A DNA stretch of 6,537 bases from JBFMHD01 sp040752395 [NCBI: Candidatus Hydrogenedentota bacterium] (lineage in GTDB: Bacteria; JBFMHD01). Below are positions 177 to 4,438 of the stretch, one piece after another. Below the pieces are notes generated by a model. The model had not been told where the DNA came from and made no database searches. It saw nothing but the letters and a program-made list of their open reading frames with translations. The position numbers were made by a program, and so were the translations under genes. Every line of letters begins with the position of its first letter. The stretch's first letter is position 1. The DNA is taken from NCBI GenBank assembly GCA_040752395.1, contig JBFMHD010000156.1:1-6537 (forward strand). Direction: 5' to 3'.

Positions 177-1226
177 TTATCCACCCATTTTACTGATAAA
201 TATTCTTAAAGCGTTTTCTACTTCAGCGACAGTTATACTTTTAATACATTGCGGGTCTTTGCAGAAAGTATTCAGGCAAGGATTAATATCACCTTTTTTT
301 CTATCAAGATAAGGACAATTATAGTACCCACTGATGCCTACAGAATCTTTATCGAGCTCAACCACATCTGGGCAAGTTGGGCCGAACAAACCAATTACAG
401 GGGTGTTAACTGCTCTTGATATATGTAAGGGTCCTGTATCATTCGTTATCAGGAGATCAAGTTGTTTTATAAATGCTACAGTTTCTCTTAAATCAATATT
501 CTCAATTAAAGTAATGTCAGGAAATAGCCCTTTACAACTAATTACAAATTCTTTTGATTCACGTGGGCCTAAAAGAAGATAAAATTCTATTTCAGGTGAT
601 TCAAACTTATCTACAATATTTCTAAAATAAAAAAGAGGCCACATTTTTGCATGCCAGCCTGCTCCTGGAAAAATCCCTATTTTTAATCTCTTATCTGAAA
701 CATCGCTGAATAATCTTTTAACTCTCTGAATCTCTTCTTCCCGTAAATAAATACGCGGGTATAAATTTCTACTTTTAATATTCAGTGTTTTTAGAAATTC
801 ATTTATCTTGGACGATAAATGCGGGGAAAGATTATGAAGGAATACAAATTTGTCATATATTATATTTCGCAAATGCTTTTTTTTATAAAGGCCAATTTTA
901 AGTTTTGCTTTAGATAGAAGAGATAAAAAAGCTGAACGTGTATTACCTATTAAGTCTATACAATAATCATATTTACAAAAAAGAAGTTCTTTATAGAAAG
1001 TAAACAAAGAAAATCTATTTAATATTTTTTCGTAAATATATTCTTTTTTAGGTAATATATGAATTTTATCGATATATGGATTATACTGCAATATAGGATA
1101 CGAATAAGGTTTTGTAATAACGGTTAAATGGGTATCCTTGAAGCTGGATTTAATTTCTTCAAAAAGAGGTGTCGAAGAGATAACATCCCCAATAAGTCCC
1201 CAGTTGATGATGAGAAATTTATCCAT
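177..1226 (-). CDS. Glycosyltransferase family 9 (ADP-heptose:LPS heptosyltransferase-like)
   Basis: The 349-residue product has normal GT9 length and is probably a cytoplasmic, membrane-peripheral GT-B enzyme that transfers a sugar, classically L-glycero-D-manno-heptose from ADP-heptose, to a lipid-linked acceptor. The N-terminal domain opens with a glycine-rich loop containing G13-D14 and then STP at 18-20. The DLIGNTRSA segment (91-99) is typical of the family. The C-terminal nucleotide-sugar domain shows PGAG (187-190), K194 with WP at 196-197, LLLGPRES (217-224), NDTGPLH (262-268) and FGPT (281-284). Four C-terminal cysteines (304, 317, 322, 327) follow a pattern common in this family. 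The donor sugar cannot be read from sequence. The ATG at 1226 fits the family N-terminus, but no Shine-Dalgarno sequence precedes it. A promoter candidate ends 9 bases upstream, suggesting a leaderless or nearly leaderless message. It is transcribed divergently from the GT2 gene. Confidence 0.92.
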   Translation of the reverse strand: MDKFLIINWGLIGDVISSTPLFEEIKSSFKDTHLTVITKPYSYPILQYNPYIDKIHILPKKEYIYEKILNRFSLFTFYKELLFCKYDYCIDLIGNTRSAFLSLLSKAKLKIGLYKKKHLRNIIYDKFVFLHNLSPHLSSKINEFLKTLNIKSRNLYPRIYLREEEIQRVKRLFSDVSDKRLKIGIFPGAGWHAKMWPLFYFRNIVDKFESPEIEFYLLLGPRESKEFVISCKGLFPDITLIENIDLRETVAFIKQLDLLITNDTGPLHISRAVNTPVIGLFGPTCPDVVELDKDSVGISGYYNCPYLDRKKGDINPCLNTFCKDPQCIKSITVAEVENALRIFISKMGG

Positions 1227-1313: not shown

Positions 1314-2288
1314 ATGCGATATGATGGTGTAACCATTTTGATAACAAACTGGAATGGTAAAAAATTAATCTTACCCTGTATCAGAGATGCAATCAATTCA
1401 GCTAATCTTTACAAAGGTCCAGTAGAGTTATTAGTTATTGATGATTTTTCTTCTGATGATTCTGTCTCCGCCATACAACAGGAGTTCCCTTCTGTAAATA
1501 TTTTTGTAAATGAAAAAAATCTTGGTGTTGGTGGCGCTATCAATGTGGGATTTGAAAAAGCTATGTATGACTATGTTATCTTATTAAATAACGATTGTTA
1601 CCTCCGAGGTGATTATATTACACCTATGATGGATACGATTAACAGATTTAACCCTCAAAGGGTCTTTGCTGTTATGAGCAGGGTATATGAGAATGATAGT
1701 GAAACTCCTGGTGGTGGTCTTTCGAGAGCATATATACATTATGGTTTACTAAGGGTCAGATGGGCAACCGAAGGAAAATATTTAGAAAAAGAGAGTTATA
1801 CATTTTACGCTACTTCAGGTGCTATGTTCAGCAAAAAAAAATGGTTAGAGTTAGGCGGCATGGACCCTTTGTTTAAACCGTTTTATTCTGAGGATGTCGA
1901 CATCTCTTACCGAGCATGGAAACGCGGCTGGTTGATAATTTATCAGCCAAAATCCAAATTAATACACAATCAAGGGACTACAATAAAATCTAATTTTTCT
2001 AAAAAATTAATAAGATTCAGTTCGCAAAAAAATAGATTTCTTTTCTTTTATAAAAATATGGATGATTTTCTATTCAATCTAAATCACTGGTCTGTAATTT
2101 TTTTCAGATTACTTGAGTTTTTTATTAAATGCGATTTTAAAGTGATTATTGAGATTATTAAAATGTGGAGTAAATTCCCGTATTTTAATAATCATAAACA
2201 AAAAGAAAATTTACAAAGAAGATTGACTGATAGAGACATATTAAGTATATCTTCAAAATGGTATTTTACCAATGCTCCAACAAAGTAA
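1314..2288 (+). CDS. Glycosyltransferase family 2 (GT-A fold), polysaccharide biosynthesis
   Basis: The 324-residue product is an inverting GT-A glycosyltransferase of the kind often annotated as rhamnosyltransferase-like. It would transfer a sugar from a nucleotide donor to a growing glycan on the cytoplasmic face of the membrane. Visible motifs are the first strand with TNWNG (11-15), the nucleotide-binding acidic pair VIDD (41-44), NLGVGGAINVG (69-79), the DxD-equivalent LNND (91-94), SGAMF (168-172), and GG-D-P followed by YSED (191-194), where the ED pair normally supplies the catalytic base. The C-terminal third (230-324) is basic and aromatic, with amphipathic stretches that could lie on the membrane but no clear transmembrane helix. 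AAGGAAG at 1301-1307 sets the ATG six bases downstream. The 3' end overlaps the next gene by 17 bases, implying one operon. The donor and linkage are unknown. Confidence 0.92.
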   Translation: MRYDGVTILITNWNGKKLILPCIRDAINSANLYKGPVELLVIDDFSSDDSVSAIQQEFPSVNIFVNEKNLGVGGAINVGFEKAMYDYVILLNNDCYLRGDYITPMMDTINRFNPQRVFAVMSRVYENDSETPGGGLSRAYIHYGLLRVRWATEGKYLEKESYTFYATSGAMFSKKKWLELGGMDPLFKPFYSEDVDISYRAWKRGWLIIYQPKSKLIHNQGTTIKSNFSKKLIRFSSQKNRFLFFYKNMDDFLFNLNHWSVIFFRLLEFFIKCDFKVIIEIIKMWSKFPYFNNHKQKENLQRRLTDRDILSISSKWYFTNAPTK

Positions 2289-3480
2289 AAAAATTACAAA
2301 ATTATTATTGCTACTATTTTTCTTCTTTCTACCAATCTCAATCACTCTGTCCGAGATTTTTGGTTTCTTATCTTTTCTAACAGCTATTTTTATTATGGTT
2401 CAGCATAATACACCATATTACAAACCATCGAAAAATATTGTAATCTCTTTAACATTACTTATTTTAATGCTGATACTATCTGTAGTTTTTTCTAAAGATA
2501 CAGGTTTGAGTCTGAATTACTTGAAAAGACACTGGAAACTTTTGATACCTGTAGGTGTTTTTTTACTTGTAAGCATTGATAATGATTTTTTTATTAAAAT
2601 TATAAAATCATTTCTTTGTGGTATTATTTTATCTATCATAGCCATTATTATCTCAGAATTTTTTTCAATTGAATTTTTAGATAATTACGATTTTTCTTAT
2701 GGTTTCTTAAGAAAGAATGCTGCCGGAGTTATGTATATCTATGCCGGGATATGGACGGCTATATCTATTATGAAAAAAGATTTAATAAAGTATATAGTTT
2801 TTATTTTAACTCTGGGTCTGTTAGTTCTTCTTGATATAAGAGAATCGGTTTGTGGTTTCCTGACTGCTATGATTACTTATTTTGTTTTATCAAATAAAAA
2901 AGTAATAATCACTTGTTGTGTTATCATATTAGTTATAGGTATCTTGTTTACAGGCAAAGGTAAATATTTTATAAGGGGAGATAATGGTTCTATTACTGGC
3001 AATGTTCTTGACAGATTCGGTGCCTGGAACAGATGTTTTGAATTATGGAAGAAAAATCCTGTCTTTGGTCTTGGAATGAGTGTATTTGATAAAATTAATC
3101 ACGATTTTATCTGGGAGAGAAAAGGATTTATTAAATCAGGTCCAATCACACCTCATTCTATGTATATCAAAGTTCTCATTGATGGCGGTATAGTTGGCAT
3201 ATCATTATTTGCTGGATTCTTATTTTATCTTTTAAAAGAATTACACAGCCTATTCTATTCTATTAAAGATAATGAGTTGTTAAGAGGTGTATGGTTATCA
3301 TTATTTTCAAGTTTTACAGGTTTTTTAACAGTGGGGTTTTTCAACGAATGTTTTACAGATGCTGAGGTTTTCTTACTTGTATTCAGTTTTTACAGTGCTG
3401 GTGTGGCTTATTTGAACGTTAACTACACACTTCAGATTGCAGACTACGGGCTACGGGCTACGGACTCCAGCCGGCTGTAG
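2272..3480 (+). CDS. O-antigen ligase/polymerase-like membrane protein (Wzy/WaaL superfamily)
   Basis: The 402-residue product has roughly ten to twelve hydrophobic segments, including about 10-43, 56-74, 108-131, 150-188, 193-227, 304-322, 337-358 and 363-382. The largest hydrophilic loop (about 228-300) is where the Wzy_C domain active region sits. Within it, R248 and W252 precede NPVFGLG (262-268), and PHSMYIKVLIDGG with H295 follows; these are hallmarks of O-antigen ligases and polymerases. The family joins undecaprenyl-linked glycans to each other or to lipid A-core in the periplasm, and the two roles cannot be separated by sequence alone. The start overlaps the GT2 gene by 17 bases with no good Shine-Dalgarno sequence, so coupled translation is likely. 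The last 12 codons (residues 391-402) and the TAG stop lie in a palindromic heptamer repeat, so the natural C-terminus probably ended earlier, soon after the last membrane helix. Confidence 0.85.
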   Translation: MLQQSKKITKLLLLLFFFFLPISITLSEIFGFLSFLTAIFIMVQHNTPYYKPSKNIVISLTLLILMLILSVVFSKDTGLSLNYLKRHWKLLIPVGVFLLVSIDNDFFIKIIKSFLCGIILSIIAIIISEFFSIEFLDNYDFSYGFLRKNAAGVMYIYAGIWTAISIMKKDLIKYIVFILTLGLLVLLDIRESVCGFLTAMITYFVLSNKKVIITCCVIILVIGILFTGKGKYFIRGDNGSITGNVLDRFGAWNRCFELWKKNPVFGLGMSVFDKINHDFIWERKGFIKSGPITPHSMYIKVLIDGGIVGISLFAGFLFYLLKELHSLFYSIKDNELLRGVWLSLFSSFTGFLTVGFFNECFTDAEVFLLVFSFYSAGVAYLNVNYTLQIADYGLRATDSSRL

Positions 3481-3502
3481 TCCGTAGCCTGTAGCCTGTC
3501 CT
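3433..3502. repeat. Heptamer-built 54-bp near-perfect palindrome at the end of the wzy/waaL-like gene
   Basis: Bases 3446-3499 form an inverted repeat centred between 3472 and 3473, and 24 of 27 base pairs match. The exceptions are 3467/3478 (C/T) and two G/T pairs (3455/3490 and 3448/3497) that could wobble in RNA. The core CAGCCGGCTG (3468-3477) is perfectly palindromic. From 3433 the sequence divides into ten 7-bp units: CAGATTG, CAGACTA, CGGGCTA twice, CGGACTC, then the inverted forms CAGCCGG, CTGTAGT, CCGTAGC, CTGTAGC, CTGTCCT. It is visibly richer in G+C than its surroundings. It supplies the stop codon (3478-3480) of the membrane protein gene. The transcript would fold into a long hairpin, but no T run follows, so a classic intrinsic terminator is not supported. 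Confidence 0.85.
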
Positions 3503-3517
3503 GATACCTCTCACTTC

Positions 3518-3594
3518 TTCCGTTATCTTGCTTCTTGCATCTTGCTTCTTTCGTTATCTTTCTTTTCCGTTATCTTGCCTCTTGCCCCTTGCTT
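3518..3594. repeat. Heptameric CTTGCNN short tandem repeat array
   Basis: Three 7-bp units stand in tandem at 3527-3547 (CTTGCTT, CTTGCAT, CTTGCTT), and three more at 3574-3594 (CTTGCCT, CTTGCCC, CTTGCTT). The nonamer CGTTATCTT occurs at 3521-3529, 3552-3560 and 3568-3576, and the longer TTCCGTTATCTTGC occurs at 3518-3531 and 3565-3578. The + strand is almost purely pyrimidine here. No coding sequence is seen in the 160 bases from 3481 to 3640. The array ends about 46 bases before the next gene, leaving an AT-rich stretch (3595-3627) that could hold a promoter. Heptameric short tandem repeats are known between genes in some cyanobacteria; that is an analogy and does not identify the host. Confidence 0.8.
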
Positions 3595-3640
3595 CTATTT
3601 GATATTATTATAGTTACAAAGTTTTTCAGAGGAAATTTAT

Positions 3641-4438
3641 ATGGAATCTATTGTTATAGAGAATTGTCCTGTATGCGAAAATAAAGAATCAGAAAAGTAT
3701 TGTGAAGGAGATTGGTGGGAATATGTAAAATGCAAGAAATGCGAACTCTTATATTTGAAAAAAAGACTCCCGACATCAAAGATGTATAAGTCTTACAGCG
3801 GTGGTCTACTTAAAGAAATAAGACGAAAATTAACATACCCATTTAGAAAATCAAAAACATTTAAAAATCTTGAAACATCACTTGCAAGATGTGAAATCAT
3901 TGTTGATGAAATAGAAAATTTTGTTTATCCACCGGGAAAGCTGCTTGACATAGGCTGCAACAAGGGATATCTAATCGCTACCTCTTTGTGCAGAGGGTGG
4001 GATGCTTATGGAATAGAACTTATTCCTGAATTGCCAATGGTGATTAAGCGAGAGTTCTGTCTTGAAAATAAAATATTTATAGGTGACATCTCAAGAAATC
4101 ACAATTATTTTGAGGATAATTTCTTTGACTGCGTCTCGCTTATAGATATGATAGAACATTTTGAAAAGCCGGTTTCTGATTTAAATAATTTAAACAGAAT
4201 CCTTAAAAATAACCGTATCCTTTTTATACAAACCCCTGATTTTAATAATATTCTATCAAAAATATATAGAAGTGCGTGGGGCGGCCTTAATCCCTGCGAA
4301 CATCTCTGTATATACAATATCAACTCAATTAAATATCTTTTAGATAAAACAAATTATAAACTCATCAAACTAAAAAGTGGCATTGATAAATATTGCGGTA
4401 ATATGGTTGTCATTGCTGAAAAATTGTCTAATGTATGA
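3641..4438 (+). CDS. Class I SAM-dependent methyltransferase with N-terminal zinc-ribbon
   Basis: The 265-residue product begins with a probable structural zinc site made of C9/C12 and C31/C34. A Rossmann methyltransferase domain follows: motif I is LLDIGCNKG (101-109), the SAM-ribose acidic residue is E126 in YGIELIPE, motif IV is around D169-MIEH, and the following strand is ILFIQTPD (193-200). This arrangement is common in methyltransferases of polysaccharide clusters and resembles sugar C-methyltransferases such as the NovU/TylC3 type, but the C-terminal domain of those larger enzymes is absent. The substrate is therefore open: a sugar nucleotide, a glycan or a lipid carrier. The Shine-Dalgarno AGAGGA at 3628-3633 supports the ATG. 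The stop overlaps the next start (ATGA, 4435-4438), indicating coupled translation. This is the first gene of a three-methyltransferase run. Confidence 0.88.
   Translation: MESIVIENCPVCENKESEKYCEGDWWEYVKCKKCELLYLKKRLPTSKMYKSYSGGLLKEIRRKLTYPFRKSKTFKNLETSLARCEIIVDEIENFVYPPGKLLDIGCNKGYLIATSLCRGWDAYGIELIPELPMVIKREFCLENKIFIGDISRNHNYFEDNFFDCVSLIDMIEHFEKPVSDLNNLNRILKNNRILFIQTPDFNNILSKIYRSAWGGLNPCEHLCIYNINSIKYLLDKTNYKLIKLKSGIDKYCGNMVVIAEKLSNV

Follow-up and report, generated by a model that had tools for sequence, protein, structure and literature searches.

Mirrored heptanucleotide arrays form a palindrome at the 3' end of a wzy-like gene and carry its stop codon

The stretch of DNA analyzed here (the window, 6,537 nucleotides at its full length) holds a polysaccharide gene cluster. 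In addition to the genes given in Table 1, which include one of three methyltransferase-like genes in all, there is one open reading frame (ORF) without a Pfam match. The product of the wzy-like gene matched Wzy_C (PF04932) over residues 176 to 314 with an E value of 1.6e-14, and its last hydrophobic stretch, judged by eye, spans about residues 366 to 383. An Rfam scan of the window gave a sole match, the 3' part of a tRNA gene truncated at the window edge (positions 1 to 70; 33.7 bits), where ARAGORN found none. We searched for relatives of the Wzy-like protein in several collections. One stretch matched among viral contigs without confirmation, leaving no relative there; the peptide matched 30 stretches of genome contigs, none of which was confirmed; and none was found in 119, 398, and 193 genomes of three phyla, although such empty results prove little.

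Table 1. Positions of the genes and repeat features of the window discussed in the text
Feature	Position	Strand	Basis
GT9 heptosyltransferase-like gene	177-1226	-	ORF list, Pfam
GT2 gene	1314-2288	+	ORF list, Pfam
O-antigen ligase/polymerase-like membrane protein gene (Wzy_C), 402 aa; 3' end enters the repeat	2272-3480	+	ORF, PF04932
Sense heptad array, open in three frames; residues 388-400 and first base of codon 401	3433-3472	+	Lag-7 identity, translation
Palindrome (54 bp) made by two arrays, loop of 0 nt	3446-3499	.	Inverted-repeat search, RNA fold
Inverted heptad array, CTACGGR-type words reverse-complemented; one TAG per 7 nt	3473-3499	+	Inverted-repeat search, translation
Stop codon TAG of the Wzy-like gene, within the inverted arm	3478-3480	+	Sequence, ORF, three-frame translation
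Gap between wzy-like and methyltransferase-like genes	3481-3640	.	ORF list, Pfam
Second period-7 tract with a different word (CTTGCTT/CTTGCAT/CTTGCCC)	3511-3600	+	Lag-7 identity, direct repeats
Methyltransferase-like gene, next after the wzy-like gene	3641-4438	+	ORF list, Pfam

An earlier note on this DNA described an inverted repeat that begins in the wzy-like coding sequence, runs past the stop, and supplies both the stop codon and residues 391 to 402. Our inverted-repeat search confirmed the repeat, with arms of 27 nt each (3446 to 3472 and 3473 to 3499), 24 of 27 positions complementary (89%), and a spacer of 0 nt. By comparison, the best palindrome with 27-bp arms in 20 dinucleotide shuffles of the window had at most 20 matches (mean, 17.7). 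The same note had proposed folding the RNA of positions 3430 to 3510. This gave a very stable hairpin at −47.2 kcal/mol, compared to a shuffle mean of −25.0 (z = −7.3), and none of 200 shuffles equaled it. Two of the arm mismatches are transitions, both G-U on the sense strand, and the third, read from the sequence, is C-U. The repeat does start within the gene, and it does provide the TAG at 3478 to 3480, but the count of 12 residues did not hold. Codon 391 occupies 3442 to 3444 and codon 392 occupies 3445 to 3447, with the palindrome starting inside the latter, which leaves 10 complete codons (393 to 402) ahead of the stop and part of an eleventh. Taking the period-7 array as the repeat moves its start to about 3433, so that the last 15 residues (388 to 402), QIADYGLRATDSSRL, are array-encoded.

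That period had been overlooked in the earlier note. Both arms are period-7 repeats of the unit CTACGGR, and the lag-7 identity of positions 3430 to 3510 was 0.635, a value that none of 2,000 shuffles reached (mean, 0.254; maximum, 0.419). The sense array reads CAGATTG, CAGACTA, CGGGCTA, CGGGCTA, and CGGACTC, then CAGCC. In the 3' arm, TAG stands at 3478, 3485, and 3492, once per reading frame, since 7 is one more than a multiple of 3. As the reversed word carries TAG at a 7-nt pitch, the stop of the wzy-like gene is a plain consequence of that pitch. A gene reading into this arm would be closed within a few codons, since each frame meets a TAG within 22 nt of the start of the inverted arm. 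Thus, the repeat has a 7-nt period and an inverted arrangement, and the stop codon comes from the inverted arm.

The second tract, behind the palindrome, was weaker (lag-7 identity, 0.554; shuffle mean, 0.381; 1 of 2,000 shuffles as high). Compound blocks of differing heptad words within one gap, as seen there, were also observed in two of the genomes described below, G004 and G132.

All of our array surveys cover genomes other than that of the window's host. A search of a genome collection with a paired-heptad pattern returned nine loci, three of which (L002, L003, and L004) show heptad arrays by eye. The other six (L001, L005, L006, L007, L008, and L009) were rejected as hairpins that, by eye, have no period-7 arrays. 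Of the seven genomes behind these loci, four have the word at up to two mismatches. Counting overlapping matches and tallying adjacent heptads separately, we found it versus the reversed pattern at 61 versus 1 places in an Anaeromyxobacter sp. metagenome-assembled genome (MAG) (G003), 108 versus 2 in an Acidobacteriota MAG (G004), 13 versus 0 in G006, and 6 versus 2 in G002; G005 had the word at 0 places and the reversed pattern at 10. At up to one mismatch, the word is patchy, occurring in 8 of 149 genomes from the G004 phylum and in 3 of 97 from the G003 phylum. The exact GGCTACGGGCTACGGACT was absent from the viral contigs searched, and a plasmid search gave a single 25-base match (E = 0.5).

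Genomes with the word carry many other heptad words too. In G132, which is a single 7.48-Mb contig, 400 kb contained 99 period-7 tracts, and the other periods between 4 and 12 had 0 to 8 tracts each; 17 of the 20 stretches in this sample had been picked for the word. We also took contiguous 400-kb stretches around one orthologous gene pair in G132 and in G276, a member of the same genus. They contained 70 and 54 period-7 tracts, respectively, with maxima of 9 and 15 for the other periods from 4 to 12. In the G132 stretches that were read, many different heptad words were seen, at about one array per 4 to 6 kb (for example, L069:9295-9429, L070:9482-9582, and L074:17387-17889).

Using gene ends from a simple custom gene caller, we examined how these arrays lie relative to genes. 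G003 was excluded from gap analyses for the runs of N in its stretches. Tract bases were coding in only 8% (G132) and 15% (G276) of cases, versus 85% and 90% for the whole sequence. Array edges fell at −10 to +5 nt of a stop codon for 21 of 75 arrays in G132 and 18 of 55 in G276, while random noncoding placement gave 3.9 and 4.1. When arrays were shuffled within their own gaps, the observed stop edges were 21 versus 10.8 in G132 (76 arrays) and 19 versus 9.7 in G276 (55 arrays), with 0 of 2,000 shuffles as high in either genome; these within-gap shuffles gave no excess of array edges at start codons in the two genomes. A first G132 set of 96 arrays had given 0.323 versus 0.132 at −20 to +10 nt of stops and 0.021 versus 0.113 for overlap with starts. 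For the 18 arrays of a further word-bearing genome, G016, the same interval gave 0.222 at stops (null, 0.061) and also 0.222 at starts (null, 0.085), so a preference for stops is not demonstrated as general. We dropped the idea that arrays are selected to close reading frames, as, among arrays adjoining stop codons, stops in all frames were supplied by 26 of 105 in sense and by 24 of 105 in antisense. With the two orientations alike, the supply of stops looks like a by-product.

The mirrored arrangement of the window recurs elsewhere. Inverted repeats were more common in gaps with arrays than in gaps without them in all four genomes tested (21/110 versus 27/278, 8/40 versus 9/143, 11/15 versus 9/48, and 4/23 versus 1/120). 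For pairs of CTACGG words, G004 had 12 in the order of the window (+−), 0 in the opposite order, and 4 direct; G016 had 5 in the opposite order (−+) and 0 direct; G132 had 0 inverted and 1 direct; and G276 and G003 had none. In these counts, same-strand arrays up to 21 nt apart were merged, leaving close direct pairs uncounted; among G004 pairs more than 21 nt apart, 6 were inverted and 4 were direct. A tail-to-tail arrangement like that of the window is found behind stops in G004, for example, at L041:2697 and L038:3180. For all words in G132 and G276, the 129 within-gap pairs comprised 19 inverted, 26 direct, and 84 unlike pairs, compared to 35, 40, and 525 among 600 random pairs. Taken together, mirror pairing of arrays is common but not universal. 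Two other counts were rejected. The first CTNCRGN pair count in G132 (32 inverted versus 5 direct) was an artefact because CTGCAG reads identically on both strands, and a binomial value (18/23; 0.011) was set aside, as it includes the window and the merging bias.

The five G016 pairs have the form CCGTAG..CTACGG (L058:10086-10202, L059:10284-10381, L060:9448-9554, L061:9877-9965, and L063:9391-9483). There are 57 to 66 nt between their arms, the inner sequences appear unrelated by eye, and the arm order is opposite to that of the window. The genus of G016 consists of one genome, making a within-genus comparison uninformative.

Orthologues were compared between G132 and G276, with 144 reciprocal best pairs at a median identity of 80%. 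An array lay behind the gene only in G132 for 24 pairs, only in G276 for 14, in both for 13, and in neither for 93. Where both orthologues had an array, the word was the same in 6 of 13 pairs (21-nt identity of at least 0.8), compared to 34 of 400 random pairs. The site at a gene end is thus reused between species, with the word kept in about half.

For the effect of arrays on protein ends, we kept pairs whose identity was 60% or higher (136 of 144). In 24 of them, an array overlapped the stop by at least 4 nt, and in 14 of these 24 the proteins align to the final residue. Stop-overlapping genes had a mean extra tail of 2.0 residues, which is driven by one pair (A41/B41) whose two gene calls have quite different ends; the median was 0. 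One gene of this genus, counted among the 14, was matched in five genomes, and its 3' end was read in four (the match in G274 was in two pieces). It ends PWRT* in G277, where the array is absent. With CTGATGC arrays, it ends PWRT-RDA* in G132 and ..SDA* in G275, and in G276 it ends PWIT-LDA* within an array of other words. In L087, the heptads behind this gene are followed by a run of direct repeats, each about 20 nt long and, by eye, AAGTCCGGCGGCTACGCC-like. In G132, the peptide NAER ends three different proteins (the L072 gene at 2307 to 3170 and genes A29 and A68 of the stretch at 700 to 1100 kb), with 3' ends in GAACGCC-type arrays. This shared NAER end is a mark of array-derived tails.

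A second gene was followed in the family of G004. It encodes a protein that we take, from its sequence, to be malate dehydrogenase-like. The search matched 27 of 27 genomes, and the 12 returned loci were read. The C-terminal end was kept, with substitutions, in 12 of 12 loci, array or not. In G004 the stop is followed by a CTNCGGG-type palindrome, and in G868 by heptad words of other kinds; at the remaining 10 loci, there was no period-7 tract above the threshold in the stretch displayed. An 8-nt repeat was seen by eye behind the gene in G123. In L174, an array of 8-nt words (GAGGATTT/GAGGATCT, by eye) stands directly behind the stop, at the site occupied by heptads in relatives, showing that the pitch can differ from 7.

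In these comparisons, arrays usually start at the stop codon, which they shift in some cases. The earlier note had suggested that a mobile or expanding repeat landed at the 3' end of the wzy-like gene and replaced its tail. By analogy with other genomes, a dispersed repeat that differs between related species can indeed add residues and a stop at gene 3' ends, but the comparisons do not support this as a general rule (14 of 24 pairs and 12 of 12 loci). The idea that a growing repeat gives a gene its stop is right in spirit; for the wzy-like gene itself, it is a proposal.

We consider it likely that two degenerate CTACGGR arrays, inverted and convergent, grew behind the wzy-like gene, overran its stop, and make up the palindrome. 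Such arrays would arise through replication slippage, and their mirror-image doubling might come about via template switching or fold-back copying. As one word is dispersed to many places, more than local slippage would be needed. The growth of arrays would usually be halted at a stop codon by selection on the protein. In the wzy-like gene, they would have gone about 15 codons beyond the stop position into the frame, and the natural end of the protein may once have been near residue 388. This overrun could be tolerated because the last hydrophobic stretch lies upstream.

A first alternative is that the wzy mRNA ends in a functional hairpin formed by the palindrome, which would be kept because it blocks 3' exonucleases or aids termination and insulates the operon. 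The stability of the fold fits this proposal, as does the G-U nature of both transition mismatches of the window. Arrays also cluster at stops, and their share of gap bases in G132 and G276 is lower in divergent gaps (0.051) than in convergent (0.090) and codirectional (0.097) ones. However, a consensus scan that counts only loops of 3 to 8 found 0 intrinsic terminator sites at 3300 to 3700, and by reading there is no T run after 3499. Sense-strand mismatches in array-linked inverted repeats of codirectional gaps comprised 13 G-U and 10 A-C, small numbers that give no sign of selection at the RNA level. In addition, the gene is often kept where the array is not, as the 24 and 14 one-sided cases versus 13 shared cases among the 144 orthologue pairs indicate. 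We regard this alternative as unlikely, and the palindrome is explained without any RNA-level function.

The earlier note also likened the hairpin to REP elements. These are dispersed 3'-end hairpins, each a single conserved palindrome with a GTAG or GGAG foot, and are associated with RAYT transposases. A REP-like or MITE-like hairpin of this kind, moved by a transposase such as RAYT, could have landed in the 3' end of the gene, and the hairpin shape, the 3'-end position, the dispersal of the word in other genomes, and the repeated GTAG would suit it. Genes that we take, from a sequence motif, to be RAYT-like are present in G132, G276, and G016, and Y1-transposase matches occurred in six of seven word-bearing genomes (G003, G016, G058, G080, G128, and G132 but not G004). 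Such matches also occurred in six of nine word-free genomes, so their presence is uninformative. Further, three RAYT-like loci from G132, G276, and G016 (L156, L158, and L164; 3.2 kb) have no period-7 array within about 1.1 to 1.4 kb on each side, and kinship to REP elements found no support. In the window, GTAG recurs as part of the heptad word, and in the genomes examined the words change from site to site at a constant 7-nt pitch, unlike a fixed mobile sequence. The palindrome shares a dispersed 3'-end hairpin with REP elements but consists of period-7 arrays rather than one conserved palindrome. We find a mobile hairpin very improbable. That this is a chance or selected palindrome within ordinary coding sequence, with a tail ancestral to the protein, is barely credible: the frame is open up to the stop and no relative was found that shows otherwise, but the period and the pairing lie far beyond shuffles and both continue past the stop into noncoding sequence.

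Convergent pairs of heptad arrays have been reported before, and we compared ours to the published accounts. In Xanthomonas, two species have 70 and 75 convergent inverted pairs of GGGAATC heptamer arrays (Rehm et al. 2015, PMC4692102), and four or more units with intact G tracts are present in 56% and 42% of the repeats. Like the arrays described here, the GGGAATC arrays are short, consist of a degenerate 7-nt unit, and are mostly intergenic, near or overlapping stops (PMC4692102). The pairs also resemble the window in that arrays of one word stand close together on opposite strands in a convergent order (24 of 27 pairs in the window), at or near a stop codon (in the window, within the second arm), and with the G-richer strand, CTACGGG here, first on the coding strand. 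They differ in that the Xanthomonas unit is G-rich and quadruplex-forming in vitro, whereas the word of the window is CTACGGR; by reading, the plus strand of 3446 to 3499 has only two GGG runs, compared to the four or more G3 tracts of a quadruplex, which about half of the Xanthomonas repeats contain. One unit was studied per Xanthomonas genome, while many words coexist in the genomes examined here.

Heptanucleotides are reported to be the most common category of long simple sequence repeats in most genomes, for which slippage with a 7-nt polymerase contact has been proposed (Mrazek et al. 2007, via PMC4679880); that account concerns direct tandem repeats, whereas the window has an inverted pair inside a gene end. 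The TAACTGA heptamer of Beggiatoaceae (PMC4679880) is likewise intergenic, and its forward repeats have stops in all three frames. However, it occurs in 169 direct sets with one indirect repeat, mostly faces start codons, and has near-variants that are rarely repeated. The GGGACCG ×4 and MTYCTGA ×5 elements of Geobacter metallireducens (PMC2700814; 49 elements; 15 of 16 aligned class-3 sites) are also dispersed heptanucleotide arrays, the MTYCTGA kind being drawn as looping back on the other strand, but their words are other than those of the window and they were proposed to be regulatory elements. The excerpts of the heptanucleotide-array literature covered by our search held neither a comparison of array-coded tails across related species nor a word swap at one gene end.

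Taken together, the palindrome belongs to a reported but unexplained kind, the inverted heptanucleotide arrays, with its own word. It is conceivable, though we rate it as quite doubtful, that a dedicated activity in some bacteria writes or rewrites arrays of 7-nt pitch and changing word at stop codons, often in mirror pairs, and that those of the window turned coding. If true, this would explain why arrays cluster at stops, why a period of 7 dominates, and why related species have differing words at one gene end. The arrays of two related genomes begin at stops, come and go between species, and often swap words at a constant pitch. They occasionally supply the last residues of a protein together with its stop, and such ends are to be read as repeat-derived and not as conserved protein.
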